A program made the translations under genes and the position numbers. Below are positions 17,129 through 36,674 of a stretch of 64,000 nucleotides of DNA, piece after piece; the stretch's first letter is position 1; each line of letters opens with the position of its first letter. This DNA is from Magnetospira sp. QH-2 (GTDB taxonomy: Bacteria > Pseudomonadota > Alphaproteobacteria > Rhodospirillales > Magnetospiraceae), in contig NZ_FO538765.1 in NCBI RefSeq assembly GCF_000968135.1, forward strand, positions 3,546,001 through 3,610,000, read 5' to 3'. Below the pieces are notes generated by a model that saw only the letters and a program-made list of their open reading frames with translations, made no database searches and had not been told where the DNA came from.

Positions 17129-17626
17129 TTACACCCCGCCGGAGTGCACGACCTCGTAGTACAGCACTTCCAGCTCGTTCTTGTGCTTGGTCTCTTCGTT
17201 GGCCAGGTACTGGAACAAGTCGTGGATGGGGCCTGGGCCAGTCTCCTCGGCCAGGGCAGTGTACTGCTCCATGGCCGCCTGCTCGCGCATCAGGGCGAAT
17301 TGCAGCACTTCCTGATCATCGGGTTTGTCACCAAGGTCCGGCAGGTGGACACAATCGGAGAACTTGCGGTCCGAAGCCGGGCGCTTGACCTCTTCTTGCA
17401 ACACCGCCTGAACATCCGGGCGCGCCTTAAGCCCGGTGAACAGATCGAAATGCTTCTGTTCCTCGGCTGCCAATTCCTCGGCCAGGTAGCGCAGGTTCTT
17501 GCTGACCTTGGGGGCCAATTCGGCGTAGAAATCCCGAGCCGTGCGCTCGAACTCGATGGCCACGGACAGGATCTCTTCCATGGAGGAAAGTGGCTTCAGT
17601 TGGTCGTAGCCGTGTTCCTGAGTCAT
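17129..17626 (-). CDS. Ferritin-like/rubrerythrin-type diiron protein
   Basis: The 165-residue protein is a four-helix ferritin-like domain with the two-half rubrerythrin pattern: E25, then E56-x-x-H59, then E115/E120, then E145-x-x-H148, the expected carboxylate and histidine ligands of a diiron site. The C-terminal rubredoxin domain of true rubrerythrin is absent. Its ATG overlaps the stop of the ferredoxin-GltD gene (ATGA), making it the last gene of the complex operon. Peroxide or oxygen protection of the iron-sulfur complex is a plausible role, by analogy; electron transfer to it from the flavoprotein is possible but not shown. Confidence 0.8.
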   Translation of the reverse strand: MTQEHGYDQLKPLSSMEEILSVAIEFERTARDFYAELAPKVSKNLRYLAEELAAEEQKHFDLFTGLKARPDVQAVLQEEVKRPASDRKFSDCVHLPDLGDKPDDQEVLQFALMREQAAMEQYTALAEETGPGPIHDLFQYLANEETKHKNELEVLYYEVVHSGGV

Positions 17627-19425
17627 TTCTTGGCATCCTGTTGCTTGAAGACGGCATCGATGGCGGTGGCGAGACGATGACCATCGGCGACCGCGTGGAT
17701 CACGTCGGGACCATTGACGCAGTCCCCCCCGGCCCAGAGCCAATCCACCGAGGTGCGGCCATCGCCATCCACCTTGATGCGGCCCCGGTTCCATTCCAAC
17801 TGCTCGGTCAATTCCTCGCCCAGCAGGGAAACGTCGGACATCTGGCCGATGGCCTCGATGACCATGTCGCCCTCGTGGATGACCTCATCGGTTTCATCAT
17901 AGCTGGGAGCGAAACGGCCCTGCTCGTCGAAGATGGAGACGACTCTCCAGGTCTTCAGACCCTTTACCTTGCCCTTGGCGTCGGTGATGATCTCCTGCGG
18001 GCCTCGGGCATCGAGGATAGTGATGCTTTCCTCGGAGCTCTCCTTGACCTCGTCCGGGTCGGCCAGGAAGTGGTCGAAATCTTCCAGCGCGGTAACGGTC
18101 ATGGCCACGTCGCCATACTTTTCCTTTTGCTTGCGGGCCAGACTGCGGGCGATATCCATGGCCACGTTGCCGCCGCCGATGACCACCGCCTTCTTGGGCA
18201 CGGTGATCTTTTCACCGTTGGTGATTTGCCGCAGCAGATCCACGGCCTTTTCCACGCCCTTGTTGTCGGAACCCGGGATGCGGGTCGAGCGCCCCAGATG
18301 CAGGCCGATGCTCAGGATCACCGCGTGGAAGTCCTTTTGCAGGTCGGCCATGGTGACATCGGTGCCGATACGCTTGTTGTATTGGATCTCCACGCCCATG
18401 CCGGTGATCACCGCGACCTCGCGATCGATGGCGTCATAGGGCAACCGGTATTCTGGAATGCCATAGCGGGTCATGCCGCCCGGCTTGTCCTGGGCTTCGA
18501 ACACGGTGACCTGATGCCCCATGCGGCGCAGGTCGTAGGCAGCGGTCAGGCCGGCGGGACCAGCGCCGATGACCGCCACCTTGTGACGGGTCTTGCGGGC
18601 CGGCTTGCCGATGATTTTGCCATACTTGTTGTTGGGCACCTGATCGATGATATGGCGCTTGAGCCAACGGATGGCGATGGGCTCGCCTTCGTGGTTGGCG
18701 GCACAAACGGTCTCGCACTTGTGGGTACAGACGCGACCACAGACCTCGGAGAACGGATTGGTCTCGTAGAGCAGCTTCAGGCCCAATTCGTAATTGCCAT
18801 CGCGCACCGCGCCGATGTAATCGGGGATCGACATATGGGCCGGACAGGTAGCGACACAAAGGCCGCATGAAACGCAGCGGTCGGCTTCGGCCTGGGCCTG
18901 TTCGACGGAGTAGCCATCGACGATTTCGTCGAAATTGGCGATGCGGGCGTCCGGTTCCATCTCGCCCATATGCACCCGGTCATGGGGCACCAGGCTATGG
19001 CCGTCGGGACGGTGATAGCCCAGTTCGGCGTTGTCCCAGCTTTTCTTGTCGATGCCGGGGGTAAAGCGGAAGGCATCACCGTCGCTGTCGGTCCAGGTGT
19101 ATTCGTTGGACATGGACAAGGAGCCGGTCATGCAGACGTCGACGCACAGCGCGCACCAGCAGCAGCGGCCATAGTCAATGCGGGGCCGCAATCCGGAATC
19201 CTCGCCCCCCGTCACCATGCCCTCGCCGGGCACCATGTCGATGGCGGCATTCTGGCAAATGGCCTCGCAGGTTCCGCACCCGATACAGGTCTTCATGTCG
19301 TTCTTGTGGAAGCCGCGATAGCGGGCCGCACCCGGCCGATCATTCAGCGGATCCTTGATGGTCACCGGATCCCGAAACAGGTGTTTCCAGGCGGTGAACG
19401 GGGATATGACGTCGCGTACACTCAT
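17623..19425 (-). CDS. Two-cluster ferredoxin fused to GltD-like NAD(P)H oxidoreductase
   Basis: The 600-residue protein starts with a NuoI-like ferredoxin region: CxxCxxCxxxC at 47-57 and CCxCxxCxxxC at 88-98, for two [4Fe-4S] clusters. A GltD/NfnB-type module follows, with its own cysteine groups at 184-194 and 229-241, an FAD Rossmann motif (GAGPAGL, about 287) and an NAD(P)H Rossmann motif (GGGNVAMD). It lies three bases downstream of the NuoD-like gene and overlaps the ferritin-like gene. The operon has no separate NuoI and no NuoEFG, so this protein probably supplies both the ferredoxin wire and the pyridine-nucleotide flavin. True glutamate synthase small subunit is unlikely because no gltB is present and the extra ferredoxin domain is unusual for it. 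Confidence 0.82.
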   Translation of the reverse strand: MSVRDVISPFTAWKHLFRDPVTIKDPLNDRPGAARYRGFHKNDMKTCIGCGTCEAICQNAAIDMVPGEGMVTGGEDSGLRPRIDYGRCCWCALCVDVCMTGSLSMSNEYTWTDSDGDAFRFTPGIDKKSWDNAELGYHRPDGHSLVPHDRVHMGEMEPDARIANFDEIVDGYSVEQAQAEADRCVSCGLCVATCPAHMSIPDYIGAVRDGNYELGLKLLYETNPFSEVCGRVCTHKCETVCAANHEGEPIAIRWLKRHIIDQVPNNKYGKIIGKPARKTRHKVAVIGAGPAGLTAAYDLRRMGHQVTVFEAQDKPGGMTRYGIPEYRLPYDAIDREVAVITGMGVEIQYNKRIGTDVTMADLQKDFHAVILSIGLHLGRSTRIPGSDNKGVEKAVDLLRQITNGEKITVPKKAVVIGGGNVAMDIARSLARKQKEKYGDVAMTVTALEDFDHFLADPDEVKESSEESITILDARGPQEIITDAKGKVKGLKTWRVVSIFDEQGRFAPSYDETDEVIHEGDMVIEAIGQMSDVSLLGEELTEQLEWNRGRIKVDGDGRTSVDWLWAGGDCVNGPDVIHAVADGHRLATAIDAVFKQQDAKK

Positions 19426-19427
19426 GG

Positions 19428-20606
19428 CTATCTCTCGATCTCCGGCGGATAGGTATGCAAGGACACCATCAGTCCCGCCACATCCGAAATATTGAGGTTG
19501 ACGATCATCCGCTCCAGCAACGCCATGGCGTGGGTATAGGAGGGACCCCGGACATTGACCCGGCGCGGGTAGCCGCTGCCGTCGGTGACCAGGTAGAACC
19601 CGTACTCACCGCGCGAGCATTCGCCCTTGATATAGGTCTCGCCGCGCGGAATGTTCCAGTGCAGCACGTTGGGCAGCTTGGACATGGTCGGGCCAGTGCG
19701 CGGCATCCGGCCCAGGATCTGCCGGATCAGGTCGATGGAAACCAGAACGTCGCGGCGACGCACGTCGGCCCGGGTGAAGATATCGGAATCCGTGCCGCTG
19801 ACCGGCTCGAAATTCAGCATGGGATAGACCAGATAGGGCGCATCCTTGCGCAGGTCCTTGACCACTCCGGCGGCGCGGGCATTGGGGCCGGTGATGCCGT
19901 AGCTGTCGATCAGCGCCGGGTCAATATAGCCGACGCCCACCGAGCGTTTTTTGAACACGGCGTTGTGGAACATCACGTCATGGACGTCCTTCATGGTCCG
20001 TTCGATTTCCTTGAGGGTCTCGGCCATGCGCTGATCGAAACCCTCGGGCAAGGTGTCGCGCACGCCGCCCGGCAGGATGAACATGTGATAGATGCGCGCA
20101 CCGGTCAGTTCCTCGAAGCGATCGAGCATCAGATCACGGGCATAGGTGGTCCATTGGCCGATGACGCCCAGGCCGAAGGCTCCGGCCTGCCCACCGAGAT
20201 ACATCATATAGCTATTGATCCGACCCATTTCGAGGATCAGGGTGCGGATCCAATGGGCCTGTTCCGGCACCTCGATCCCGGCCAGTTCCTCCACTGCGGC
20301 GGCATAGCAGTACTCGTTGAAGTCCGGCTCCGGCACGCAGATGCGGCAGACGATGGGAAAGCATTGGATAAAGGTGCGGCGCTCCATGAGCTTCTCGAAG
20401 CCCCGGTGCAGGTAGCCCACATGGGTGCGACCCTCGACCACCTCATCGCCGCAGACCGTCAGTTCCACCGACATGTTGCCGGTGATGCCCGGATGGTTCG
20501 GACCCTGCCAAAGCTTCAGGTACTTGCCCGAGGTCAGGTCGATGTCGCAGGTCCCGTCGGCTTTTTTCTCCGGGTATTGGCTGCGATCTGGCGTAAACTG
20601 CAACAT
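19428..20606 (-). CDS. NuoD/NiFe-hydrogenase large-subunit-like protein without a full metal site
   Basis: The 392-residue protein has the NuoD/HycE-like core (GPNHPG at 36-41, YLHRGFEKLMERR near 65-77, EMGRINSYMMYLGGQA). The N-terminal hydrogenase ligand motif RICxxC is present only in part: R88-I-C90-V-P-E93, where the second cysteine is glutamate, with C82 and C87 just before it. The C-terminal DPCxxC is absent; the protein ends ...YPPEIER. It therefore cannot hold a NiFe centre as hydrogenases do, nor is it a normal complex I NuoD. This intermediate state fits the MbsL/MbxL type. It would sit beside the NuoB-like subunit in the peripheral arm. Confidence 0.82.
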   Translation of the reverse strand: MLQFTPDRSQYPEKKADGTCDIDLTSGKYLKLWQGPNHPGITGNMSVELTVCGDEVVEGRTHVGYLHRGFEKLMERRTFIQCFPIVCRICVPEPDFNEYCYAAAVEELAGIEVPEQAHWIRTLILEMGRINSYMMYLGGQAGAFGLGVIGQWTTYARDLMLDRFEELTGARIYHMFILPGGVRDTLPEGFDQRMAETLKEIERTMKDVHDVMFHNAVFKKRSVGVGYIDPALIDSYGITGPNARAAGVVKDLRKDAPYLVYPMLNFEPVSGTDSDIFTRADVRRRDVLVSIDLIRQILGRMPRTGPTMSKLPNVLHWNIPRGETYIKGECSRGEYGFYLVTDGSGYPRRVNVRGPSYTHAMALLERMIVNLNISDVAGLMVSLHTYPPEIER

Positions 20607-20607
20607 A

Positions 20608-21144
20608 TCAATCCCCGTCCGGATAGAGTTTCTGTTTCATGTACTGCGCCGGGTCGTGGGTCTCGCGGCCCTCCCGGTGGACGAACTTCTCTTCGGAATA
20701 CTTCAAGGTATCGAAGTCCCGGCGGTAAGGCGGGATACCGGTCCAGCCTTCGAGGATGAATTCCTCGTCGACTCGGGGGCTGCCCGGGAAGTCGATGCCG
20801 AACATCTCGCGCAGTTCCCGCTGATAGGTGGCGGCAGTGGGCCAGATATCATGGATGCCATCCATGGAAGCCTTGTCGCGCGGGATCATCAGCCGTACGC
20901 CCAACTCGCGGGCGGCCAACCGATTGCACAGGAGATAGGTCAATTGGAACTGATCTTCTTCAAGCCAATCCACCGCCGTCAGCAGCACCAGATGAGTGAA
21001 GCCTTCCACGTCGCGCAGTTGCAGCAGCAAGGCCCGCAGATGCTCGCGGTCCACGGTGACGAAGGCCAGATCCTCGCGCTGCTCGGTCAGCGGGCCGAGG
21101 GCGAAGGGCTGTTTGAGTCTCTTATACAGGTCGCGCATGTTCAT
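20608..21144 (-). CDS. NuoC-like (30-kDa) subunit
   Basis: The 178-residue protein has the complex I 30-kDa signature late in the chain: W..A..YQRELREMFGIDFPGSPR...EGW....YRRDF. NuoC/MbhK subunits carry no cofactor and brace the catalytic pair. The gene sits between the NuoB- and NuoD-like genes with gaps of six and one bases, the usual B-C-D order. Confidence 0.88.
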   Translation of the reverse strand: MNMRDLYKRLKQPFALGPLTEQREDLAFVTVDREHLRALLLQLRDVEGFTHLVLLTAVDWLEEDQFQLTYLLCNRLAARELGVRLMIPRDKASMDGIHDIWPTAATYQRELREMFGIDFPGSPRVDEEFILEGWTGIPPYRRDFDTLKYSEEKFVHREGRETHDPAQYMKQKLYPDGD

Positions 21145-21150
21145 TGGTCG

Positions 21151-21792
21151 TCACCAGTTGTAATCGGGCATGTCCCAATCGTCGATCACCGACTTCTGAT
21201 TGGCCTTGTACCATTCGAAGCGCTCGGCATATTCGTTGGCGCCCTCAGCCTTGCCGGCCCGAATGATTTTTTTCAGATCCTCGAATCCAGCCAGCAGCGC
21301 CTCGGGGCGCGGCATGCAGCCGACGATGTACAGATCCACCGGCAGATACTCGTCGAGCTTCTTGATGGTGTTATAGGAATCCCAGTACATGCCGCCGTTG
21401 ATGGTGCAGGAGCCCAACCCGACCACGTACTTGGGGCTCTGCATCTGCTCATAGGAGCGGATGGCCCGCTTCAGGGTCTTGGTGGAGAGGTATCCCGAGA
21501 TCATCAGCAGGTTGGCCTGCCTGGGCGTCGGGCGCCACTGCACGCCGAAGCGATAGGCATCGAAGCGCGGTGTCATCAACGGGCGCATCTCGATGGCCCC
21601 GCAACCGGTGCCGAAGCCGAGAATCCACAGAGATTCGGACCGGGCCCAGTTGAAGAAGTCCTCGACAATCTTCACATAGACCGGCGGATGGACCTTGGGC
21701 GGCGCCTCGCAATAGTGATCGCGCAGCGGATCGATCTCGATGTCTTGACCGTCCGGAGTCCTGACGATGCGTTTTTGAAGTTCTTCTTTCAT
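21151..21792 (-). CDS. NuoB-like iron-sulfur subunit with three proximal-cluster cysteines
   Basis: The 213-residue protein has the NuoB fold marks GSCTINGGMY (C129) and VGCMPRPEALL (C159). The N-terminal ligand motif, CCAxE in NuoB and CxxC-like in hydrogenases, reads GTGC64-G65-AIEM, so the tandem cysteine is reduced to one. I checked the codons (tgc ggg) at the nucleotide level. With C64, C129 and C159 the cluster would have only three cysteine ligands, leaving one iron open or held by another group. A site-differentiated proximal cluster of this kind is the proposed catalytic centre of the Pyrococcus MBS complex. Confidence 0.85.
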   Translation of the reverse strand: MKEELQKRIVRTPDGQDIEIDPLRDHYCEAPPKVHPPVYVKIVEDFFNWARSESLWILGFGTGCGAIEMRPLMTPRFDAYRFGVQWRPTPRQANLLMISGYLSTKTLKRAIRSYEQMQSPKYVVGLGSCTINGGMYWDSYNTIKKLDEYLPVDLYIVGCMPRPEALLAGFEDLKKIIRAGKAEGANEYAERFEWYKANQKSVIDDWDMPDYNW

Positions 21793-21798
21793 ATCACC

Positions 21799-22704
21799 TC
21801 ACACCACCAGAATGGCTGCGACGCCGATGGGAACGGCCCAGATCAGGAACCAGCGGATGGATTGTTCGACTCTAAAGCGTGGGAACACCACGCCAACGAA
21901 GGCGGCAAACAGATAGATCAGGAACGCCTTAACAAAGAAGATCGGCCAATTGTCCGCCCCGCCGAAGAACAGGTTCATATAGATCACGATCTTGGCGATG
22001 GGGAAAATCACCCGGTTGGTCTGCATCAGCGCCAAGTAGGATGAATGGTATTCCGTCGGCGGGCCGATGGGGATTTCCTGTGGGGCCAGCACCACGTCGA
22101 ACGGCGGCCGCATCATGGAGCCCAAGAAGCCCAGCATGCCTGCTGCCACCGCCAGCGGATTGGTGAACAGGGTCCAACTCATCAGGCCCCCTTGCTGAGC
22201 GGCAACGATCTCGGTTACCGACAGGGTCTGATATTGCAGGGCCACCGCGAACACCGCCAGGGCAAAGGGAAGCTCTGCCGTGGTCACTTGCGACAAGCCC
22301 CGGGTCACACCGATGGCAGCATGGGGATGGCCGCTTTCGCCCGCGCCCAAGGCCATGCCCAGGGAACCGAAGAAAACGAAATACAGGGCCAGGATCAGGT
22401 CTCCGGCAAAGGAGAAATTGGCGAACATCACCGAGCCGTAGATGGTCGGCACGAACAACAACAGGCCCACACCGCCCGACAGCCGGAACACCGGGCCCAG
22501 GTAATACATGACACCATGGGTGATATGCGAGCGCAGGGCATAGTTCTTCAGCAGGTCGAAGTAATTCTGATAGATGGGAATGCCATAGCGCCGACCGGCC
22601 CGGGCACCGATTTTTTGAATCAGCGCGGTCATCAGCAGGCCATAGTTGACGACAATGAAGATCGTCAGCAAGGCATAGGGGATTTGGATCCACTCGAAGT
22701 TCAT
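21799..22704 (-). CDS. NuoH-like membrane subunit (MbhM type)
   Basis: The 301-residue protein has about eight membrane helices and the conserved cytoplasmic loops of NuoH, including RRYGIPIYQNYFDLLKN near residue 38 and an E/G-rich PFDVVLAPQEIPIGP segment near 200. This subunit links the iron-sulfur arm to the pump modules. It lies between the double-pump gene and the NuoB-like gene with gaps of two and six bases. The position (before B, C, D) differs from Pyrococcus mbh, where the H-like gene follows the L-like gene. Confidence 0.87.
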   Translation of the reverse strand: MNFEWIQIPYALLTIFIVVNYGLLMTALIQKIGARAGRRYGIPIYQNYFDLLKNYALRSHITHGVMYYLGPVFRLSGGVGLLLFVPTIYGSVMFANFSFAGDLILALYFVFFGSLGMALGAGESGHPHAAIGVTRGLSQVTTAELPFALAVFAVALQYQTLSVTEIVAAQQGGLMSWTLFTNPLAVAAGMLGFLGSMMRPPFDVVLAPQEIPIGPPTEYHSSYLALMQTNRVIFPIAKIVIYMNLFFGGADNWPIFFVKAFLIYLFAAFVGVVFPRFRVEQSIRWFLIWAVPIGVAAILVV

Positions 22705-22706
22705 GG

Positions 22707-25700
22707 CTAGGCCCCCATCATAATCAGATAGACGATGACGACAAATCCCAACAGCTGGAAGGCATAGATCTGTCCGTCACCGGTATAGAGACGCCGGGTG
22801 ATGTCAGCGACACCATGCAGCAAGTCGGTCACCGCAGCCCAGAATGTCTCGAAGTATGGCACCGCCAGGATGCCAAGAGCCTTGCGGTAGGGCGCGAAGA
22901 AATTCCAGGCAAAATGGGTGGTCTCCGGTCGATAGGGCCGCTCCGCCGCATAGACGATGTTGAACTGCTTTACCTTCTGGGCGTTGTGGTTCAGCGCCAG
23001 CATGACCAAGAACAACGTGGCGAAGATCACACCGGTGACGACCATGATCGAGACCGGACTCCAATAGCCGTATTGACTGGTAATGGTCAGCCCCTCCCAT
23101 CCCAGGGAGCCATTGGGGAAGAACTGGGAAATGTAGGCATCCACCTTTTTCAGTGCCAGACCCGGGAACAACGCAAAGCCCATGAGGAAGGCCACATAAA
23201 GCATCTGCGGCAGGATGAACCAGAACGGCGCTTCCTTGACCGTGCGCAACTCGTCCTTCAACTGGCCCAGGAAGATGGTATGGATCAGCCGGAACAGATA
23301 CAGGAAGGCGATGGGGCCGGACAGGAATAAGATGATAATCGGCAGCCGCGCATCGGAGTCCAAAATGGCGTTGTAGAAGATCCACCGGCCACCGAAGCCC
23401 GAAAGCGGCGGCACGCCGGACACGGCGATGATGCCGATCAAAACAGCGATAAAGGACAGCGGCATCATGGTAATCAAACCGCCCATCAGATACATCTGCC
23501 GGGTGCCGGTGCGCTTGGCCACGCCACCCACCGAAAGGAACAGCATGGACTTGTAGACATAGTGGTTGATGATGAACATCAAAGCCATCAGCCAGCCCAG
23601 GTGGTTCATCATCGCCAGACCGAACACGGCATAGCCCATCTGACCGATGGAGGAATAGGCCAGCAACCGTTTGGCGTCTTCCTGGAAGGCCGCCATGATG
23701 TTACCCACCAGCGCCGACAAGGCACCAATCCACAGCATCACATAGGTTAGTTCGACCCCGTACAGCTGCGTCTTGCCCATGGTCATCAAAAGCATCATCA
23801 AACCGAACAGTCCGGCTTTCAGCAAAATACCCGAAACCATCGGCGAGACATCGGTCTCGGCCTCGGCATGGGCGCCGGGCAGCCAAATATGCAGGCCCAA
23901 CGACGCGGTCTTGGTCATGAAGCCGATGGCCAATAAGACGAATACCCAAGGCGCCCAGTCAGCGCTGACATGGGCCAGGGATTGCAGAGCGAACGGGGTT
24001 TGGCCCTGGGCCGCGATGGCGAACCCGGCCAACAGCACGAAGGCCCCCCCCATGGAAAAGATGATATAGGACAGGGCATGGGGCTCGGATTGCTTGCCCC
24101 GCAGGATCAGGAAGTACGACCCGATGGTCAGGGCTTCCCAGGCGGCGAAGAAGTTGAACGAGTCCTCGGCCACCACCAGCATGGCCAGACCGGAATACAT
24201 CAGCATGGCCGACGGATAGAATCCCATGCGCTGGCCCTTGAATTCATAACTGGCCAGGAAGATCACCGCGCCGCCAATGAGGATGATAACCGCATAGATC
24301 AGTTGCAGCGGTGAATAGGTGTCGTAGCTGAAATAAAAGAAGACGGACATGCCGACGATGGCGATGCTGTTCTTGATCCAGGACGGCAGCGGCTCCAGAA
24401 GCAAAAAGGCGATGGCAAACAGCAGCGGGATCATTTGCAGCAGGTTGCCGTAGTCAGACAGTTCGCCCCAGATATACCCGGCGCCCCAACCACCCAAGGC
24501 GGCAAGCATGACCACGCCGACCTTGCGCACGGAGAACGGCATGAAGTGTCCCTGCTCTTCGCGCTTGATGACGTATCCGAACCAGCGATAAAGGTAACCG
24601 GTTTCCACCAGCGCCCCAAACAGCACCAGGGCAATCACGGTCAAACGCCCGTTCTCGGCCAGGATATGCATTAGCTCCCACTTGGCGTAGAAGCCGGGGA
24701 ACGGCGGCAGGCCGATGAGCATGGCGAGGAAACTGGCAAAGGCAAAGATCAGCAGCGGATTCTTGCGCAGCACGGTCCAAGCCATCAACTCGCGCTCCTG
24801 GATCAGACCGGAAATCCAATACAGTCCCGCCTTGGCCACCGCATGGGCAACCAGAATGCCGCCGGCAATATACAAGTAGTCCTCGCCCAGGATGTCGCGC
24901 TGGCCGATGACCACCAGGATCAGGCCGATCTGACCGACCGAAGAATAGCCCAACAGGCGCCGATCGTTGGTCTGCGACAGGCCCATGATATTGGAGGCCA
25001 CGAAGGTAAACAGGCCGATGCCGGTGGCAACCGGCAGCCAGGTCTCTCCGCCGATGAGGAGGATTTTGTCCGCCGCAAACAGTGCCGCGGCGCCTGTCGC
25101 GGCGGAGAACACCGCCGAAATGGCCGGATGGGCGGATTCATAGATATCCAGCGCCCACCCGTTGGCCGGGAACGGCTTCAGTTCGGCGACCACCGCCATG
25201 AACATCAAGAAGAAGGCCACCGAGCCACCGCCCACCAATACGGTTTTGGAGGCCGCCAGGTCGTCGATATTGAGGCTGCCACCAGCGTGATACAGGAAGA
25301 TGATACCGATCAGCATCAACACCGAAATCACTTGCGAGACGATCAAATACTTGAACCCGGCTCCCAGCGCGTGGCGGTCATAGGACAACAGGATCAAACC
25401 ACCGGTGGAGATCACCACCAATTCGAAGAACACGAACAGATTGAAGATATCGCGAGTCAGAATAATGCCGCACAGGGCCATGATGGCGATGAGGTACACC
25501 GCCATCGCCCGGCGTTTCAGACGGTTCAGTGTATCTTTAAGGAACAGCGCCGAGGCCAGACCGGTCAAGGTGACCAACAACAACAGCGCCGCTTCCGCCA
25601 TGCCCATCCTCAGATTGATGGCAAAGGGCGGCGGGCTGCCCGCGGTATGAATATCCACCGGCGCGATGCCCTCGAAGGCAAAGGCCCAGACCCATTGACC

Positions 25701-25832
25701 GGCGATCCAGGCCATGACGGCCAGGGCGGCAAGGGTCAGCAGGTAGGCTTGGGCCCGCCAGGTATCCTTGAGGAATCCGAGCAGGAATGCCGAACCGAGG
25801 CCGACGGCGAGAATATAAATGGCGCTTACCAT
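22707..25832 (-). CDS. Double MrpD/NuoL-type antiporter-like subunit (two pump modules in one chain)
   Basis: The 1041-residue protein is two proton-translocating modules in one continuous frame. Module 1 (about 1-500) has the key acidic residue E137 in LFVFFEL, lysine K219 in AELKPFP and K334. Module 2 (about 520-900) has E566 in FFAAWEAL, K641 in TKTASLGLHIWLPGAH, K672 and the H757/K761 pair. A further hydrophobic tail may include a lateral-helix-like part. In most Mrp and Mbh systems MrpA/MrpD-like proteins are separate genes; archaeal MBS has two such subunits. The start overlaps the MrpC stop by seven bases. Confidence 0.88.
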   Translation of the reverse strand: MVSAIYILAVGLGSAFLLGFLKDTWRAQAYLLTLAALAVMAWIAGQWVWAFAFEGIAPVDIHTAGSPPPFAINLRMGMAEAALLLLVTLTGLASALFLKDTLNRLKRRAMAVYLIAIMALCGIILTRDIFNLFVFFELVVISTGGLILLSYDRHALGAGFKYLIVSQVISVLMLIGIIFLYHAGGSLNIDDLAASKTVLVGGGSVAFFLMFMAVVAELKPFPANGWALDIYESAHPAISAVFSAATGAAALFAADKILLIGGETWLPVATGIGLFTFVASNIMGLSQTNDRRLLGYSSVGQIGLILVVIGQRDILGEDYLYIAGGILVAHAVAKAGLYWISGLIQERELMAWTVLRKNPLLIFAFASFLAMLIGLPPFPGFYAKWELMHILAENGRLTVIALVLFGALVETGYLYRWFGYVIKREEQGHFMPFSVRKVGVVMLAALGGWGAGYIWGELSDYGNLLQMIPLLFAIAFLLLEPLPSWIKNSIAIVGMSVFFYFSYDTYSPLQLIYAVIILIGGAVIFLASYEFKGQRMGFYPSAMLMYSGLAMLVVAEDSFNFFAAWEALTIGSYFLILRGKQSEPHALSYIIFSMGGAFVLLAGFAIAAQGQTPFALQSLAHVSADWAPWVFVLLAIGFMTKTASLGLHIWLPGAHAEAETDVSPMVSGILLKAGLFGLMMLLMTMGKTQLYGVELTYVMLWIGALSALVGNIMAAFQEDAKRLLAYSSIGQMGYAVFGLAMMNHLGWLMALMFIINHYVYKSMLFLSVGGVAKRTGTRQMYLMGGLITMMPLSFIAVLIGIIAVSGVPPLSGFGGRWIFYNAILDSDARLPIIILFLSGPIAFLYLFRLIHTIFLGQLKDELRTVKEAPFWFILPQMLYVAFLMGFALFPGLALKKVDAYISQFFPNGSLGWEGLTITSQYGYWSPVSIMVVTGVIFATLFLVMLALNHNAQKVKQFNIVYAAERPYRPETTHFAWNFFAPYRKALGILAVPYFETFWAAVTDLLHGVADITRRLYTGDGQIYAFQLLGFVVIVYLIMMGA

Positions 25833-26194
25833 TTCAGCTCCGTGAATTTGGAGATATCGAGGGTCCGTTTGGTCTCGAACAGCTTATGGGCATAGGCGAG
25901 CATCAGCGCGGTGACGCCGAGGCCGATAACGATGGCGGTGAGCACCAGGGCCTGTGGCACCGGGTCGATGATCCGCTCGACGGCTTCGGCCAGCGGAACG
26001 GCGTCATCGAGAATGGGTGCCGTGCGCCCGGTCATGTATCCGACCGCCACCAGCACCAGGTTGACGCCCGTGTTGGCCACGGTGAAGGCAACGATCATGC
26101 GCAGGATATTGCGGTTGGTCAGAGCCCCGTGGAGCCCGATCAGGATCAACAAGAAGCCTGTCGCCATGGCAATGATTTCAATGTCAGGCATCAC
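25826..26194 (-). CDS. mrpC: MrpC/NuoK-like subunit
   Basis: The 122-residue protein has three membrane helices and the NuoK/MrpC layout: FLLILIGLHGALTNRNILRM in the first half and a long polar loop before the third helix. It overlaps both neighbours by a few bases, which points to tight translational coupling. It would join MrpD-type pumps to the MrpG/F side of the membrane arm. Confidence 0.88.
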   Translation of the reverse strand: MMPDIEIIAMATGFLLILIGLHGALTNRNILRMIVAFTVANTGVNLVLVAVGYMTGRTAPILDDAVPLAEAVERIIDPVPQALVLTAIVIGLGVTALMLAYAHKLFETKRTLDISKFTELKW

Positions 26195-26904
26195 TTGTCC
26201 TCCGTTTCGGCGAAGCTCACCATCATGGAACTGAACTCGGCGCCGACCTTCAGACCAATCAGCGAATAGATCAGTGGAATGGCGCCGGCGGAGAACAAGC
26301 TGCCAAAGGTACCCAGGGGCAGGATCCGGTTATCCAGGAAGCCACCGGCCAAGAACAGACCGAGGATGCCGATGGTCACATAGAGGAATCCGGACCCCGA
26401 TTCGATGCGCGCGATCAGCGCATGGCTGAAGCGGCGGAACGGATGGGTGAGCAGCATCAAGAGAATGCCCGAGGCGACAATGGCCCCGCCTTGGAAACCA
26501 CCGCCCGGGGTCAGGTGGCCGTTCACAAACACATAAATACCGAACAAGATGATCAGCGGCACCAGCAGACGGCAGCCGGTGAGCAGTAATTCACCCGACG
26601 GCAGCAGGTTGGAAATCAAACCGATCACTGGAACCTGGCCCGGCAGGCGCTCTTTTCTAAGCACCAGCGCCACGGTGGCGGCGGTCAGGAACAAAACGGT
26701 CACTTCGCCCAGGGTGTCCAGGCCGCGATAGGTGACAATGATCGCCGTGACGATATTCTGCGCTCCGGTATCCGACGCCGTGTTTTCGGCGTAATAGCGC
26801 GCTGTCAGATTCAGGGCCTCGTCGGGGGTGTAGCCCAGCATCAAGGTGGTAAAGGCCGTGGCAAGACCGAGAAGCACCATGAAAGCGATCACATTCTTAA
26901 TCAT
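26191..26904 (-). CDS. MbhE-MrpB fusion membrane subunit
   Basis: The 237-residue protein has two parts. The first (about 1-90) carries the MbhE-like VTYRGLDTLGEVTVLFLTA segment. The second (about 105-230) is MrpB-like, with RLLVPLIILFGIYVFVNGHLTPGGGFQGG and six or so helices in total. In Bacillus-type Mrp these pieces are the end of MrpA and all of MrpB; in Mbh they are separate genes E and F. The fusion is in frame with no sign of error. It overlaps MrpC by four bases and the upstream gene by eight. Confidence 0.85.
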   Translation of the reverse strand: MIKNVIAFMVLLGLATAFTTLMLGYTPDEALNLTARYYAENTASDTGAQNIVTAIIVTYRGLDTLGEVTVLFLTAATVALVLRKERLPGQVPVIGLISNLLPSGELLLTGCRLLVPLIILFGIYVFVNGHLTPGGGFQGGAIVASGILLMLLTHPFRRFSHALIARIESGSGFLYVTIGILGLFLAGGFLDNRILPLGTFGSLFSAGAIPLIYSLIGLKVGAEFSSMMVSFAETEDK

Positions 26905-27154
26905 TGCGTCCGCCTCTCACCCGTCCGAGGACGAAGAAGAACAAGAAGGTGGTCAGGCCGCTGCCGATGGCCGCTTCTGTCATGGCCACGTCCGGCGCCG
27001 CCAGCAGCAGAAACTGCACCGAGGCAAACAGGCTTACCGCTCCGGCGGCCAGGATCGAGATCGGCAGGCTCCGTTTCCCCGACACTGCCAGAGTCGCGCC
27101 GACCAGCATCGCGGCCGTCAGCAACAGGCTCATGATTAAAGGGAGAAGACTCAT
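26897..27154 (-). CDS. MbhD-type (DUF4040) membrane subunit
   Basis: The 85-residue protein has two to three helices and the DUF4040/MbhD signature ASVQFLLLAAPDVAMTEAAIGSGL, here broken into its halves ASVQFLLLAAPDVAM and TEAAIGSGL. In Mrp antiporters this segment is part of the MrpA C-terminus; as a separate gene it is typical of Mbh/MBS systems. Overlaps with neighbours on both sides place it firmly in the operon. Confidence 0.85.
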   Translation of the reverse strand: MSLLPLIMSLLLTAAMLVGATLAVSGKRSLPISILAAGAVSLFASVQFLLLAAPDVAMTEAAIGSGLTTFLFFFVLGRVRGGRND

Positions 27155-27489
27155 GATTTTTCTCCAAGGTCTTCGGCCAGACGATCCACTTGGGTCTCCT
27201 GGGCGGGCTTGATGCCGCTCCGATGGGCGGCGCGCGCCAGAACCTGCGAAGACAGCGGGTTGGTGAACATCAAGAACAAACCGATCAACAACAGCTTGAA
27301 AGCCCAGTCCGGCTGCATCAAACCCGCACCGAGCAAGGTCAGCATGGTGCCCAAGGTCGTGGCCTTGGTTCCGGCCTGAATGCGGTTGAAAATATCAGGC
27401 ATGCGGGTCAGACCGAGACCACCAAGAAGCAGGAACGTGGTTCCGGCCACCAAAACGATGCCACCGGCAATATCGAGCGAGGACTCCAT
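27151..27489 (-). CDS. mrpG: MrpG subunit
   Basis: The 112-residue protein has three helices and the MrpG signature GGLGLTRMPDIFNRIQAGTKATTLG at residues about 23-47 (GLTRMPDIFNRIQA shown as the key part). MrpE, F and G form a group at the sodium-translocating end of the membrane arm. It overlaps the MbhD-type gene by four bases and touches MrpF by one base. Confidence 0.9.
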   Translation of the reverse strand: MESSLDIAGGIVLVAGTTFLLLGGLGLTRMPDIFNRIQAGTKATTLGTMLTLLGAGLMQPDWAFKLLLIGLFLMFTNPLSSQVLARAAHRSGIKPAQETQVDRLAEDLGEKS

Positions 27490-27752
27490 CAGTCGGTTCC
27501 CCTTTCCAGATAGCGGGCGACGACGATCACGCCCAGGAAGGACAACAAGGCATAGACCAGCGCCACATCCAGGTAGACCACCCTCTGCTCCAACAGCGCC
27601 AGCAGCACGATGCCGGTGATGGCAACAATGGTCAGCACATCAAAGGCAATAACCCGATCAACGGCCACGGGGCCCCGGATAAAGCGCAGCAACGCCAGCA
27701 GAAAGGCCGTACCGGCCAGACCCGCCGCCACAAGGATCAGGATCTCAACCAT
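27489..27752 (-). CDS. mrpF: MrpF subunit
   Basis: The 87-residue protein has three helices with the MrpF marks FIRGPVAVDRVIAFDVL near 24-40 and a conserved YLDVALVYALLSFLG helix. It overlaps MrpE by eight bases and abuts MrpG (one-base overlap), so E, F and G are translated as a block. Confidence 0.9.
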   Translation of the reverse strand: MVEILILVAAGLAGTAFLLALLRFIRGPVAVDRVIAFDVLTIVAITGIVLLALLEQRVVYLDVALVYALLSFLGVIVVARYLERGTD

Positions 27753-28257
27753 ACATGACCTCCAGATAGCGCTCGAACCCGGCTACGATTGTCTCGGTCG
27801 CCTGGTCCACATCCGCCGTTTCCATGCTCACCCAGTGCACGTACAGCCACTCGTCTTGCAATTCCACGGTCAAAGTGCCGGGGGTCAGGGTGATGGCATT
27901 GGCCAGCAGAAGCCGACCCATGCGGCTTTGCAGCTTGGTGCGCACCTTCACGATGCCCGGGTTCACGGGCAGGCTCGGCGACAATACGATAAACGCCAGG
28001 CGGAAATTGGATTTAACCAGTTCCTTCAAAAAATAAAGGATGAAAAGCAAAGTGGCGGGAATGGCCGCTGGAACCAGTCGGTAATCCGACAAAAAAGAAA
28101 GGCCGTTACGGAAAAAAACGGTAATGACAAAGGCCGCCACCAGCCCGATCAGTAATGTGTCCGATTCCAAATTACCGTTCAGCAAAATCCAGAATAAAAT
28201 TAGAGTCAAAAACAGCTCGGCCGAGTAGATGAAACGGCTTGGAACGTTTGTGTCCAT
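27745..28257 (-). CDS. mrpE: MrpE subunit, first gene of the operon
   Basis: The 170-residue protein has two or three N-terminal helices and a soluble C-terminal domain with ANAITLTPGTLTVEL and LYVHW, typical of MrpE. In known Mrp and MBH/MBS structures E, F and G surround the sodium/proton path. It is the first of 13 same-strand genes ending with the ferritin-like gene at 17129; all junctions after it are overlaps or gaps of at most six bases. The presumed promoter is in 28258-28738. Confidence 0.9.
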   Translation of the reverse strand: MDTNVPSRFIYSAELFLTLILFWILLNGNLESDTLLIGLVAAFVITVFFRNGLSFLSDYRLVPAAIPATLLFILYFLKELVKSNFRLAFIVLSPSLPVNPGIVKVRTKLQSRMGRLLLANAITLTPGTLTVELQDEWLYVHWVSMETADVDQATETIVAGFERYLEVMYG

Positions 28258-28999: not shown

Positions 29000-30031
29000 T
29001 TAGATGGCGGTCTCCTCCTTGCGGTACTGGAAGTCCGTGCCGTCGATCCACATGCGATGCATGATTACGGCGAGACGCCGGGCAACGGCGACCTTGGCGC
29101 GTTTCATCCCGCGCCTTTTGGCGACCGCGAGCCCCCAGTGTTTGAGCCAGGACCAACGGCGGGTTCGAGTGAGAAGTGCATTGGCGGCCTCGAACAAAAG
29201 CCAACGAACCATGGCATCTCCGCACTTGCTGATGGGGCCGCTTCGGTCCTGCTCTCCCGAGGCGTATCTGCGTGGGACAAGCCCGAAGTGGGCGCCGACC
29301 ATGACCGACTTTTGAAACCGTTCCGGCACGTCGAGTCCTGTCCTGAAAGCGAGGGCGGTAACCGGGCCGACGCCGGGAACGGTCATCAGGCGCCGGCAAA
29401 CGCTATCATCGCGCGCAGCGGCATGAACCTGCCGGTCGAGCTTGTCGAGTTGTTCGAGCAAGGCTTGGCGCGCAAGCAAGAGCGGCTCGGCGGCTGCGCT
29501 GAGGTGCGGGTTATCAGCCGTCAATTCCCGAACCCGCGCCGCGAAAAGGCGTCCGCGCGCCATACCGACCTTGAGGCCGAAAGCTTTCAATGTTCCTCGT
29601 ACCGTATTGGACAACTGACGGACCTGATGAACCAGGGTCTCCCGATGGGTCAGCACCATCCGGAGCTCCTGACTGCGCGCGGTCTTGACGTGGGTCGCGC
29701 GGTACAAACCGGTCCGCATCGCCTGGCTGATCAAGCGGGCGTCGCGACGGTCCGTCTTGACTGGGCTGGCGCTGGCAAAGGCCTTCATTTGCCGGGTCTC
29801 GATACAAATCACAGGGAGGCCCCGACTGGACAGTCCTGCGTACAGCCAAGGCGCCAGAGGGCCAGCTTCCAACCCAATTCGCGCAAAGCCACGCCCGCTT
29901 TCCTCGAGCCAAGTGGCGACCGCCTCGGGTGTGCTTGACACCTTGCCTTCGCGAATGACGGTTCCCTTTGCATCAATCTCACAGATCGAAATGCTTGCCA
30001 TCGATACGTCCATTCCAACAAAATACTCCAT
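29000..30031 (-). CDS. IS110-family transposase (DEDD), copy 1
   Basis: The 343-residue enzyme has the N-terminal RuvC-like DEDD domain (MEYFVGMDVS at the start, GLEAGPLAPWL near 50, KTDRRDARLI near 95) and the C-terminal Tnp20 domain (VPGVGPVTALAFRT...GLVPRRYASGEQ). The start at 30031 follows GAGGAG; an upstream in-frame extension lacks a ribosome site. IS110 recombinases work with a structured bridge RNA from the element's non-coding part, pairing with donor and target. The frame is intact, so the element may be active. Confidence 0.92.
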   Translation of the reverse strand: MEYFVGMDVSMASISICEIDAKGTVIREGKVSSTPEAVATWLEESGRGFARIGLEAGPLAPWLYAGLSSRGLPVICIETRQMKAFASASPVKTDRRDARLISQAMRTGLYRATHVKTARSQELRMVLTHRETLVHQVRQLSNTVRGTLKAFGLKVGMARGRLFAARVRELTADNPHLSAAAEPLLLARQALLEQLDKLDRQVHAAARDDSVCRRLMTVPGVGPVTALAFRTGLDVPERFQKSVMVGAHFGLVPRRYASGEQDRSGPISKCGDAMVRWLLFEAANALLTRTRRWSWLKHWGLAVAKRRGMKRAKVAVARRLAVIMHRMWIDGTDFQYRKEETAI

Positions 30032-30309
30032 AGCTGGTCTCCTCTGTTCCATGTCCAGGAATTGACCCGGATACTTGATCAAGACCGAGTGTGGAGACCA
30101 GCTGACTGTTTAGGCAATCCCTGACTGCTCGATTACCGCCATCTGAAAAAGTCCGATTTCGAGCCTGTGCCAACACATGCCTCGACAAGCTCAGCATGAG
30201 GGCCTTTGAATTCTCAACAGGTTAGCCTCATCCTGAGCTTCCTCATCCCGAGCTTGTCGAGGGACGAAGGGCGAGGCGGGCCGTAGGACAACACTTTTTC
30301 AGCAGCCTG

Positions 30310-30819
30310 TTAGATCGGTACCTTGCGGCTTCCACCGACATCAGGTTCCGGGACGATGGCGCCGCCGAATTCGATCTCCTCGTCGGTGGCATCACGGACA
30401 GTCAGAACTTCCAGCTTGAAGATCACAAGGCGACCGCAAAGCGGGTTATTGCCATCGACCGTGAGAGTCTTGTCGTCCATGCGGGTCACGATGAAGTTCC
30501 GCGGCTCACCTTTTTCATTTTCCATGGTAATGGTGGTACCGATTTCCCGATATGGTTCGGGCACGTTTTCGATCTTGTCGGTAAAAACCAGGGATTCATC
30601 CCGGGCGCCGTAAAGCGTGGTGCAATCGATGGGCACCTCGATGATGTCGCCGGTTTTCTTGCCTTCCAGCTCCAAGGTGACACTCTTGTCCAGGGCGCAA
30701 TCCTGACCATGAACATAGCCGATGGGATATTCGACCGCGACCAGGGTGTCCCCGGACTTCTGATCGATCACCTTGTAGCTGAGCTCGACGAATTTGTTGT
30801 CTTGAATGGTTTCGCTCAT
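30310..30819 (-). CDS. slyD: SlyD-like FKBP-type peptidyl-prolyl isomerase
   Basis: The 169-residue protein has the FKBP/SlyD fold marks YKVIDQKSGDTL, then PIGYVHGQ near 33 and a long insert-in-flap-like middle region, ending with LEVLTVRDATDEEI. SlyD proteins catalyse proline isomerisation and chaperone metalloproteins. The stop codon TAA belongs to the end of the MITE-like repeat, so the original C-terminus may have been longer; SlyD tails often carry a metal-binding His/Cys stretch, absent here. It lies downstream of aprMBA and the 117-residue gene on the same strand. Confidence 0.8.
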   Translation of the reverse strand: MSETIQDNKFVELSYKVIDQKSGDTLVAVEYPIGYVHGQDCALDKSVTLELEGKKTGDIIEVPIDCTTLYGARDESLVFTDKIENVPEPYREIGTTITMENEKGEPRNFIVTRMDDKTLTVDGNNPLCGRLVIFKLEVLTVRDATDEEIEFGGAIVPEPDVGGSRKVPI

Positions 30820-30917
30820 TTCACATCACAATCCGGGTTCTCGGTCACGTCGTGCTTGATCGGGTTCGATTCATCGCGAGTAACGTGATCCGTATCATTG
30901 GGGTCGCGCACGCCCAT
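30816..30917 (-). CDS. Possible 33-residue ORF coupled to slyD
   Basis: A short acidic frame (MGVRDPNDTDHVTRDESNPI...) starts at 30917 and its TGA overlaps the slyD ATG (ATGA). No clear ribosome site precedes it. A related DNA segment exists near 28644-28676. It may be a coupling leader or chance. Confidence 0.3.
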   Translation of the reverse strand: MGVRDPNDTDHVTRDESNPIKHDVTENPDCDVK

Positions 30918-30942
30918 CAGGTTCAATGGAACCCGACCGGGG

Positions 30943-31296
30943 CTAGAAGACCGAGGCACCAAAAATCTTGATGGCCTGTTGCTCATCGAAGCCGAGGACC
31001 AGACGACCGAGCCACTCACCTTCCTTTTTCGTGCTGCGAACACGATACAGAACGGTTACATGCTCGCCACGGCGAATCATGCCGAGGTAGTCGTAGACTT
31101 CGGAAAGGCTCCGTGTCAGCTCGCTTTTCGCGAACTGCTTTCCCACTTCGACTTCGTTCAACCCTTGGATCAGGCTGTTGTGGAAATTGCGGATGAATTT
31201 TCCATACTTCCCTTCGTTGGAAGCCCGGACAAGCTCGGTCCACATGGGCTCGGCAACGGCCAGGATTTCTTCATCGGTGAGTTCGATAATGTTCAT
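30943..31296 (-). CDS. Conserved-looking hypothetical protein, 117 residues
   Basis: I do not recognise the family. The protein is soluble, charged and likely helical at the start (ELTDEEILAVAEPMWTELV), with a beta-rich second half (VTVLYRVRSTKKEGEWLGRLVLGFDEQQ) and no cysteines. It lies on the apr strand, 128 bases after aprA beyond two hairpins, and before slyD. The balanced composition and clean start (GAGGA upstream) suggest a real gene. A role near sulfur metabolism is only positional. Confidence 0.6.
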   Translation of the reverse strand: MNIIELTDEEILAVAEPMWTELVRASNEGKYGKFIRNFHNSLIQGLNEVEVGKQFAKSELTRSLSEVYDYLGMIRRGEHVTVLYRVRSTKKEGEWLGRLVLGFDEQQAIKIFGASVF

Positions 31297-31340
31297 AAGA
31301 GTCCTCAGTCACGCTGGTAGGGCAATTTTGTAGGGGCATA

Positions 31341-31374
31341 AAAAAAGATCAACACGTCAATGCTGATCTTTTTT
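31341..31374 (-). terminator. Bidirectional-type terminator after aprA
   Basis: AAAAAAGATCA and TGATCTTTTTT form an 11-bp stem with a 12-base loop. Read on the minus strand it ends in a T-run, so it can stop transcription leaving aprA before the 117-residue gene. Confidence 0.85.
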
Positions 31375-31381
31375 CAAACCC

Positions 31382-31412
31382 CCGGCAGAAGTTCAACGGG
31401 AACTTCTGCCGG
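31382..31412 (-). terminator. Strong hairpin directly after aprA
   Basis: CCGGCAGAAGTTC and GAACTTCTGCCGG give a perfect 13-bp stem with a 5-base loop, 13 bases past the aprA stop. It has no T-run of its own and may protect the 3' end of the apr mRNA or act with the next hairpin. Confidence 0.75.
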
Positions 31413-31424
31413 ATGTCTTGAAAG

Positions 31425-33314: not shown

Positions 33315-33796
33315 TAGTAGTACACCCCTTCCTTCATCACGAGGCCGTTGGATTCCAGGGTATGCAAGTCGCCGTCATCCATGCGGATGTACTTCGGCTC
33401 GTTGTACAGCAGCTGACTATCGCGCTGTTCCTTGGACGGCTCGGGCGCATTCTTCAGCTGAGGAATGCAAGTCCCCCATGGCTTGGTGGTGATCGGAGCC
33501 AGCAGGTTGAGGTCTTTCTTGCCGTTGCGGAATTTGATCCGCCAGGCAATGACACCTTTTTCCTCGTCCCGCACAGCGCGAACGCTGTGACCGAGCGGCG
33601 CAAAGTCCGCATAGCCGCGCACGTCGATGGCGTTTTGCGGGCAAGCCTTCACACAGGAATAGCATTCCCAGCACATGTTCGGCTCGATGTTATAGGCACG
33701 ACGATAGGTCTTATCGATGTGCATGATGTCGGACGGGCAGATATCAACGCAGTGACCGCAGCCGTCGCATCGTGTCATATAGACAAAGGTAGGCAT
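33314..33796 (-). CDS. aprB: Adenylylsulfate reductase beta subunit
   Basis: The 160-residue protein is the ferredoxin-like beta subunit, with CxxCxxCxxxC motifs for two [4Fe-4S] clusters (RCDGCGHCVDICP near 9-21 and MCWECYSCVKACP near 41-53) and the long C-terminal tail that wraps AprA. It relays electrons between the AprA FAD and the membrane partner. It sits between aprM (43-base gap) and aprA (one-base overlap). Confidence 0.95.
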   Translation of the reverse strand: MPTFVYMTRCDGCGHCVDICPSDIMHIDKTYRRAYNIEPNMCWECYSCVKACPQNAIDVRGYADFAPLGHSVRAVRDEEKGVIAWRIKFRNGKKDLNLLAPITTKPWGTCIPQLKNAPEPSKEQRDSQLLYNEPKYIRMDDGDLHTLESNGLVMKEGVYY

Positions 33797-33839
33797 AATT
33801 CGTTTCCTTCCCTGTTAGAAAGAATCTTTCAGGTTTGAT

Positions 33840-36597: not shown

Positions 36598-36674
36598 CCA
36601 TTCCACAAAGCATTGCCACAGCACAACAAGGCTTATTCACGTTCAACAAGAACAATGGATAAAGGTAAAAAAAT

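Follow-up and report, generated by a model that had tools for sequence, protein, structure and literature searches.

It is not yet settled how redox chemistry drives the antiporter-like membrane modules of complex I, the membrane-bound hydrogenase (MBH), the membrane-bound sulfane sulfur reductase (MBS) and the Mrp family. The locus described here, within a 64,000-nucleotide stretch of the Magnetospira sp. QH-2 genome (contig NZ_FO538765.1, positions 3,546,001 to 3,610,000; hereafter the window), bears on this question, since one gene encodes two such modules in a single chain of 1041 residues. Is this double module a natural protein, to which kind of complex does it belong, and what has become of it in other bacteria? 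We conclude, with a probability of roughly 0.8, that it is a natural MbsH-MbsH' fusion in a redox-driven ion pump of the Mbx/MBS type, and that one descendant clade lost both the redox arm and the loop that would contact it (Loop 1), leaving what is most likely a stand-alone cation/proton antiporter. Among the papers listed in searches of the open-licence PMC literature, none describes a fused MbsH-MbsH' chain or a redox-derived stand-alone antiporter.

The fused chain

The frame is uninterrupted over its entire length and contains two Proton_antipo_M domains (Pfam). In NCBIfam profile searches, residues 4-446 resemble the MbsH-like model PRK08377 (281.7 bits) and residues 461-1036 the MbsH'-like model PRK08668 (408 bits, model positions 28-610 of 613), both matches lying below the equivalog cut-offs of their models. 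The closest solved structures are the MBS subunits 6u8y_H (MbsH) for residues 5-260 and 6u8y_X (MbsH') for residues 460-1040.

An AlphaFold model of the chain, built on a 32-row alignment, has a predicted local distance difference test (pLDDT) score of 85.5 and a predicted template modelling (pTM) score of 0.88. Residues 1-460 superimpose on 6u8y_H over 453 residues with a root-mean-square deviation of 2.6 Å (Z 40.0, VIA-align), although MrpD chains equal or exceed the score of 6u8y_H (7qru_D, Z 42.5). The VIA-align matches concern mostly the N module, and the C module was compared through sequence and through Foldseek, whose top match for the whole chain is 6u8y_X. Because each module has an even number of membrane helices (14 and 16, counted by eye) and the linker between them has only about 9 residues, the model fits two modules in parallel orientation.

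A preliminary description, made from the DNA alone, had recognized the single frame with its two pump modules and had named MbsH/MbsH' pairs as the comparison to make, and these are indeed the closest solved relatives. It had also raised the questions of module orientation and of a lateral helix (HL); the model provides a parallel arrangement for the former and a helix in two segments for the latter (Table 1). The term MrpD-type, which it applied to both halves, does not suit the C half, which is H'-like, with HL and transmembrane helix 16 (TM16), and the seam lies at residues 459-467 instead of near residue 510. Its argument that encoding both modules together would set their 1:1 ratio and their order gains from the single-gene MbsH-MbsH' double module found here.

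Fused chains are found well beyond the window. Among 39 further genomes of a sample of relatives, 3 carry a copy, with identities of 72, 72 and 37%. Among 317 genomes of the order, 10 have the chain, that of the window included, and one frame crosses the seam in all 10; in one of them (G635) the chain was matched only as far as residue 627. The class sample yielded 1 of 385 genomes, the window's own, and the phylum sample 7 of 398, again with its own, both at an E cut-off of 1e-60, at which distant fused copies could escape. A contig scan with two peptide patterns gave at least 80 loci, a number that carries no information on prevalence; 19 have a fused chain, one of them cut by a contig end, and 12 have adjacent separate H and H' genes. 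Two loci at contig ends were excluded from the counts (L051, a fragment of 189 residues, and L081, with H only). The resulting comparison set of 33 fused chains includes ten further chains from the order and phylum samples. Since independent assemblies carry the chain, and two finished plasmids have it as a single annotated gene, the 1041-residue fusion is a natural gene and not an assembly artefact.

The seam is conserved in place. The stretch corresponding to positions 395-560 has 164-195 residues in fused chains and 210-276 in separate H plus H' pairs, so that the fused chains are shorter by about 50 residues at the junction. We considered whether the C module might also be translated on its own from a start codon within the gene, as Met467 lies at the seam; however, most other fused chains have different residues there, leaving no conserved internal start. 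One metagenome-assembled genome (MAG) of the Spirochaetes, B116_G9, has both an operon with separate H and H' and a fused operon (L045, L057).

The operon

The chain is encoded in a minus-strand operon of 12 genes, in the order MnhE, MnhF, MnhG, MbhD, MbhE-MnhB, MnhC, fused H-H', NuoH-, NuoB-, NuoC- and NuoD-like subunits, and a NuoI-GltD fusion. The Mbx/MBS gene set is therefore complete, with the E/F/G/D/B/C arm, M, J, K and L, and a ferredoxin subunit of the N type. Respiratory complex I has three antiporter-like subunits (its L, M and N) and NuoEFG, whereas the window's complex has only two such modules and the identified operon genes include no NuoEFG-like gene; a separate complex I locus exists elsewhere in the Magnetospira genome. 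The unfused bacterial relatives (12 pairs analyzed) have the same gene order with separate H and H', and NuoI-GltD comes last wherever the locus extends that far.

The NuoD-like subunit resembles neither a hydrogenase nor a quinone-reducing subunit in its diagnostic residues. The large subunit of the [NiFe] hydrogenase in MBH carries two CxxC motifs; the expected Cys pairs are missing from the NuoD-like subunit, which reads RICVPE at the N-terminal site and SLHTYPPEIER at the C-terminal one. In the alignment, GPNHPGIT and CRICVPEPD occupy the places where complex I NuoD has GPQHPAAH and DRLDYVAP, and the quinone ligands of complex I (positions of Nqo4 H38 and Y87) are absent. MBS likewise has no quinone His/Tyr in its L subunit, the criterion being that of the MBS structure report (PMC7684303).

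The NuoI-GltD protein, standing in place of NuoEFG, is the probable entry point for electrons from NAD(P)H or ferredoxin. The activity expected of this kind of pump is polysulfide reduction that depends on ferredoxin and is coupled to ion pumping. If MBS and Thermotoga maritima MBX are a guide, the likeliest chemistry here would be a reaction linked to ferredoxin or NAD(P)H, with an acceptor of the sulfur type, a proposal that we make only tentatively.

Operons without the redox arm

A NuoH-like gene adjoins the fused gene in 23 of the 24 chains labelled as redox-linked, including that of the window. The other nine fused chains (L039-L044, L048, L120 = G987, L121 = G974) all belong to operons of the order E, F, D, G, B, C, HH, with no M, J, K, L or N gene beside them in the stretch covered. 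Their carriers are Rhizobium, Microvirga, relatives of Burkholderia, and Chelatococcaceae. Three more stand-alone copies are on plasmids, in Rhizobium sp. T136, Paraburkholderia sprentiae WSM5005 and Rhizobium sp. SL42; the records describe all three strains as root-nodule isolates, and the stand-alone copies are partly on megaplasmids. A fourth plasmid match, in Phyllobacterium (H3), is outside the three-copy counts. All nine operons and the three plasmid copies have the gene content of group 3 Mrp antiporters, namely no mrpA, MrpD-type module(s), and mrp B, C, E, F and G. A gene for an SLC13-type permease lies upstream of the stand-alone operon in L138, where it is named as such, and was recognized by eye in L039 and L040.

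The stand-alone chains differ sharply from the redox-linked ones in one place. In MBS, the loop between TM15 and TM16 of MbsH' is one of three that bridge the redox arm and the pump, and its authors regard it as a key conserved coupling feature (PMC7684303). The corresponding stretch of the window's chain (residues 946-985, Loop 1 with flanks) has 40-42 residues in all 23 chains of the redox group that reach it and 38-42 in all 11 separate H' subunits that do, as against 23-31 in the nine stand-alone chains and 23-25 in the three plasmid copies. Within it, residues 951-975 show the largest drop in identity to the redox consensus among 25-residue blocks, from 0.60 in distant redox-linked chains to 0.05 in stand-alone ones. 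Other blocks mostly differ by 0.15 or less, with differences of 0.20-0.29 at 776-825 and 851-875.

The putative ion path itself looks largely retained. HL and TM16 are still present in the stand-alone chains. In redox-linked operons, the six small subunits have 30 conserved charged positions, and all nine stand-alone copies share 26 of these. Three of the other four are kept in 6 to 8 copies, and H161 of the MbhE-MnhB protein in 2. Since the small-subunit charges, HL and TM16 stay while Loop 1 goes, the stand-alone clade looks, at the level of sequence, as if it had kept the ion path and lost the contact with the redox arm.

Key residues of the two modules

The key residues named for MBS are E138, E219, K250, H330 and K393 in MbsH and E128, K217, K248, H336 and K399 in MbsH' (PMC7684303). 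The window's N module has E137, E217 (Glu as in MbsH, not Lys), H330 and K384, with A248 where MbsH has K250; its C module has E566, K641, K672 and H757, with R816 where MbsH' has K399. The earlier statement that the key Glu and Lys residues persist in the two modules is thus correct for E137, E217, K384, E566, K641 and K672, and has to be withdrawn for the Lys residues of TM8 in the N module and TM12 in the C module.

These patterns extend to the whole comparison set. E137, E217, K219, K334 and K384 in the N module, and E566, K672 and H757 in the C module, are present in 33/33 fused chains, whereas H330 and K641 are found in 32 each, the exceptions being an Asn (L038) and a single unread residue, respectively. 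Position 248 is Ala, Ser, Thr or Asn in every fused chain and never Lys. Position 816 is Arg in 17 chains (the window's clade) and Lys in 16, as in all 12 separate H' subunits.

It is conceivable, although we are inclined to doubt it, that only one module pumps: the N module could be a passive relay without its TM8 Lys, or the C module could be blocked by Arg816 in the window's clade. The MBS counterparts of both sites are named parts of the central axis and the TM12 kink (PMC7684303), and their replacement is as regular as described above. However, K219, close to the TM7 Glu, accompanies E137, K334 and K384 in all fused chains, which resembles a relocation of charge. The same Lys pattern, Ala at 248 with K219, occurs in three of the 12 separate H subunits (L050, L056, L060) and is therefore independent of fusion; the others have Lys (3), Glu (5) or Gly (1) at position 248. 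With the exception of L054, all of the 45 rows carry an H charge either on TM8 or two residues past the TM7 Glu. We infer that the shift of the Lys from TM8 to TM7 reflects relocation of the charge and not decay. An exchange of this kind was also tried as a signature of the fusion and dropped, as the three separate H subunits share it; these three and the fused clade are all on long branches in the fused-chain tree.

Direction of change and remaining alternatives

In the tree of the chains, all fused ones are on one side of a branch against the 12 separate pairs (Shimodaira-Hasegawa-like approximate likelihood ratio test, 100), and again in a pruned tree against 5 of these pairs. On the trees, the fusion arose once. 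The stand-alone chains form one group (support 100), the sister of which is L036, a redox-linked MAG chain (support 97 to 100). When the seven membrane subunits are used (45 rows, LG+G4), redox-linked fused chains as one clade are rejected by the approximately unbiased (AU) test with p 0.0022, and with 23 of the 45 rows under LG+C20 with p 1.3e-5; the redox-linked group had been named from the first tree, so that these p values are not blind. The seven-subunit alignment covers 40/45 rows for E and F and 44/45 for the other subunits. On the seven-subunit trees, the stand-alone clade is nested inside the redox-linked one.

The opposite direction, in which the stand-alone operons would be an older Mrp-like form and the fused pump would have gained its redox arm later, is unlikely. 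It would follow the path usually proposed for Mrp, MBH and MBS, from an Mrp antiporter to a respiratory complex (PMC8415708, PMC7419157), and the fused-chain tree alone allows redox-linked fused chains as one clade (AU p 0.172). Against this, the nearest unfused relatives share both the redox genes and their order, the seven-subunit trees show the nesting just described, and the Loop 1 stretch of unfused H' is about as long as in redox-linked fused chains. Whichever tree is taken, loss of the redox arm is the simplest explanation, since the unfused relatives have it as well. Quite probably, then, a redox-driven respiratory pump turned back into a stand-alone cation/proton antiporter: in one lineage, the fusion of H and H' would have been followed by the loss of all five redox subunits and of the coupling loop, and this lineage is now found in rhizobia and relatives of Burkholderia.

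There is very little to recommend the idea that the stand-alone operons borrow a redox arm from complex I or from another locus in the genome. NuoD- or NuoH-like matches do exist in 7 of the 9 stand-alone genomes, yet they are of low identity and probably belong to complex I. In a whole-genome search with the window's M subunit, two of the nine genomes gave no match, and the other seven gave none above 42 bits or 30% identity; the same search in five redox-linked genomes returned 303-552 bits and 50-81% identity. The L subunit was searched in two of the nine (G974, G987), where the matches reached 30-37% per piece, the level that complex I gives, compared with 55 and 82% in G012 and G774. No close homologue was found in either search, and the loop that would contact a redox arm is gone in all nine stand-alone chains.

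The weakest alternative, that a mistake in assembly or sequencing merged two genes near residue 510, against which the preliminary description had asked to be checked, is as good as ruled out: the chain of G553 (L113, L115), one of the ten genomes of the order, does break into two frames through a real frameshift or a sequencing error, but near residue 820 and away from the seam, while 33 fused chains from independent assemblies, and more as single genes on finished plasmids, share a seam that is conserved in place and shortened as described above.

Table 1. Features of the operon and of the fused chain in the window (protein residues refer to the fused chain).
Feature	Coordinates	Strand	Remark
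MnhE / MbsA-like	27745..28257	(-)	Pfam MNHE
MnhF / MbsB-like	27489..27752	(-)	Pfam MrpF_PhaF
MnhG / MbsC-like	27151..27489	(-)	Pfam PhaG_MnhG_YufB
MbhD / MbsD-like	26897..27154	(-)	Pfam MbhD
MbhE + MnhB, one chain, MbsE-like	26191..26904	(-)	Pfam MbhE + MnhB
MnhC / MbsG-like	25826..26194	(-)	Pfam Oxidored_q2
Fused MbsH-MbsH' antiporter-like chain	22707..25832	(-)	1041 aa, single uninterrupted frame
N module, residues 1-458, MbsH-like	24459..25832	(-)	14 membrane helices by eye in model, within residues 5-458
TM7 Glu217-Leu218-Lys219, N module	25176..25184	(-)	Glu217 corresponds to MbsH E219; extra Lys two residues on
Ala248, site of MbsH central Lys250 (TM8)	25089..25091	(-)	
Junction, residues 459-467	24432..24458	(-)	between helix 435-458 and helix 468-478 (AlphaFold model)
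C module, residues 468-1038, MbsH'-like	22719..24431	(-)	16 membrane helices by eye + helix HL
Arg816, TM12 Lys site of C module	23385..23387	(-)	
Loop 1 with flanks, residues 946-985 (TM15-16 loop)	22878..22997	(-)	
Lateral helix HL, residues 974-1013	22794..22913	(-)	helices 974-990 + 993-1013 in model; matches MbsH' C-terminus
MbsM-like (NuoH)	21799..22704	(-)	Pfam NADHdh
MbsJ-like (NuoB)	21151..21792	(-)	Pfam Oxidored_q6
MbsK-like (NuoC)	20608..21144	(-)	Pfam Complex1_30kDa
MbsL-like (NuoD)	19428..20606	(-)	Pfam Complex1_49kDa
NuoI-GltD fusion (4Fe-4S clusters + FAD/NAD(P)-binding flavoprotein), PRK13984-like	17623..19425	(-)	Fer4 + Pyr_redox_2

Several other genes surround the operon. A rubrerythrin-like gene (17129-17695, minus strand) directly follows it, and a homologue is also present past NuoI-GltD in close relatives whose loci reach there. 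Upstream, within 29000-34679 on the minus strand, are aprA, aprB and a membrane protein weakly similar to TcuB/QmoC, which suggests a sulfur oxidizer; an IS110-type transposase (29000-30082) separates the aprAB region from the mrp-like genes. A tie between the operon and the neighbouring aprAB is unsupported, as no aprA or aprB match was found in loci L122-L132. At 35830-36624 (minus strand), a protein is built from repeated units resembling DGTxEWW and REDGPA.

Discussion

The frame, the operon, the homologies, the single clade of fused chains, the changed residues, the nesting on the seven-subunit trees and the lost loop are results of computation. We infer transport, the coupling ion, and the electron donor and acceptor of the complex along the following lines. 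The NuoI-GltD subunit would take up electrons, which would cross the NuoB- and NuoD-like subunits to a soluble or sulfane-type acceptor. By homology with MBS, three interfacial loops, including Loop 1 of the fused chain, would then move and drive the charged axis of the C module, which would lie beside the NuoH-like subunit, and the N module would be driven after it. The Mrp-like E/F/G/D/B/C subunits, again by homology with MBS, would exchange Na+ for H+. The stand-alone clade would have discarded the redox arm and Loop 1, retaining the fused pump and the charges of the small subunits.

Several observations weigh against this interpretation. To our knowledge, none of the fused chains has a reported transport or redox activity. 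The substitutions A248 and R816 could reflect a loss of pumping in one module or in both. With 893 bits, NuoI-GltD stays below the PRK13984 cut-off of 946. Among the chains labelled redox-linked, L037 bears that label by default, as its contig ends inside the fused chain, and the MAG contig of L036, the sister of the stand-alone group, shows only a NuoH-like gene after the fused gene. Finally, as described above, the fused-chain tree taken alone does not reject a single clade of redox-linked fused chains.

Since the same fused pump occurs with and without a redox arm and differs sharply in one loop, the residues for coupling and those for ion exchange can be compared directly. If the proposed history is true, nature has carried out a deletion experiment that points to Loop 1 as the redox-coupling element, and evolution from Mrp antiporter to respiratory complex can also proceed in reverse, against the accepted direction. 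In addition, the one-gene chain permits mutants of each module at a fixed 1:1 stoichiometry. Judging from the sequences, some soil and root-nodule bacteria appear to retain the fused pump as a likely transporter after the electron-carrying arm was lost.

The closest known system is MBS of Pyrococcus furiosus (PDB 6u8y, PMC7684303). MBS shares with the window's complex the H and H' modules, HL, TM16, the Mrp-like E/F/G/D/B/C arm, the M, J, K and L subunits, and an L subunit without the quinone His/Tyr. In P. furiosus, however, H and H' are separate genes, whereas the window has one chain, which we regard as a variant and not as grounds for exclusion from the Mbx/MBS kind. Unlike MBS, the window's complex has a NuoI-GltD fusion as its N subunit, has lost the central Lys of H, and has, in the window's clade, Arg for the TM12 Lys of H'. 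T. maritima MBX, a 13-subunit bacterial homologue of MBS predicted by its authors to pump Na+ (PMC9431562), is, like the window's complex, a bacterial representative of this type. With 13 subunits, its H and H' are expected to be unfused. Presumably, the MBX operon also ends in a glutamate-synthase-like gene.

Canonical Mrp complexes (MrpA/MrpD; PDB 6z16, 7qru) likewise have two antiporter-like modules held by HL and small subunits, but there MrpA is a chain separate from MrpD and bears the MbhD/MbhE-like part. Group 3 Mrp antiporters (PMC8415708) resemble the rhizobial and Burkholderia copies in having no mrpA, MrpD-type module(s), E/F/G/B/C and no redox arm, and the stand-alone Mrp of P. furiosus is described there as lacking an energy-input module. 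Unlike the P. furiosus Mrp, the stand-alone copies have H and H' fused into one chain that includes HL, and on the trees they derive from redox-linked complexes. The fused pump therefore belongs to the Mbx/MBS and group 3 Mrp kind, to which it adds the stand-alone clade.

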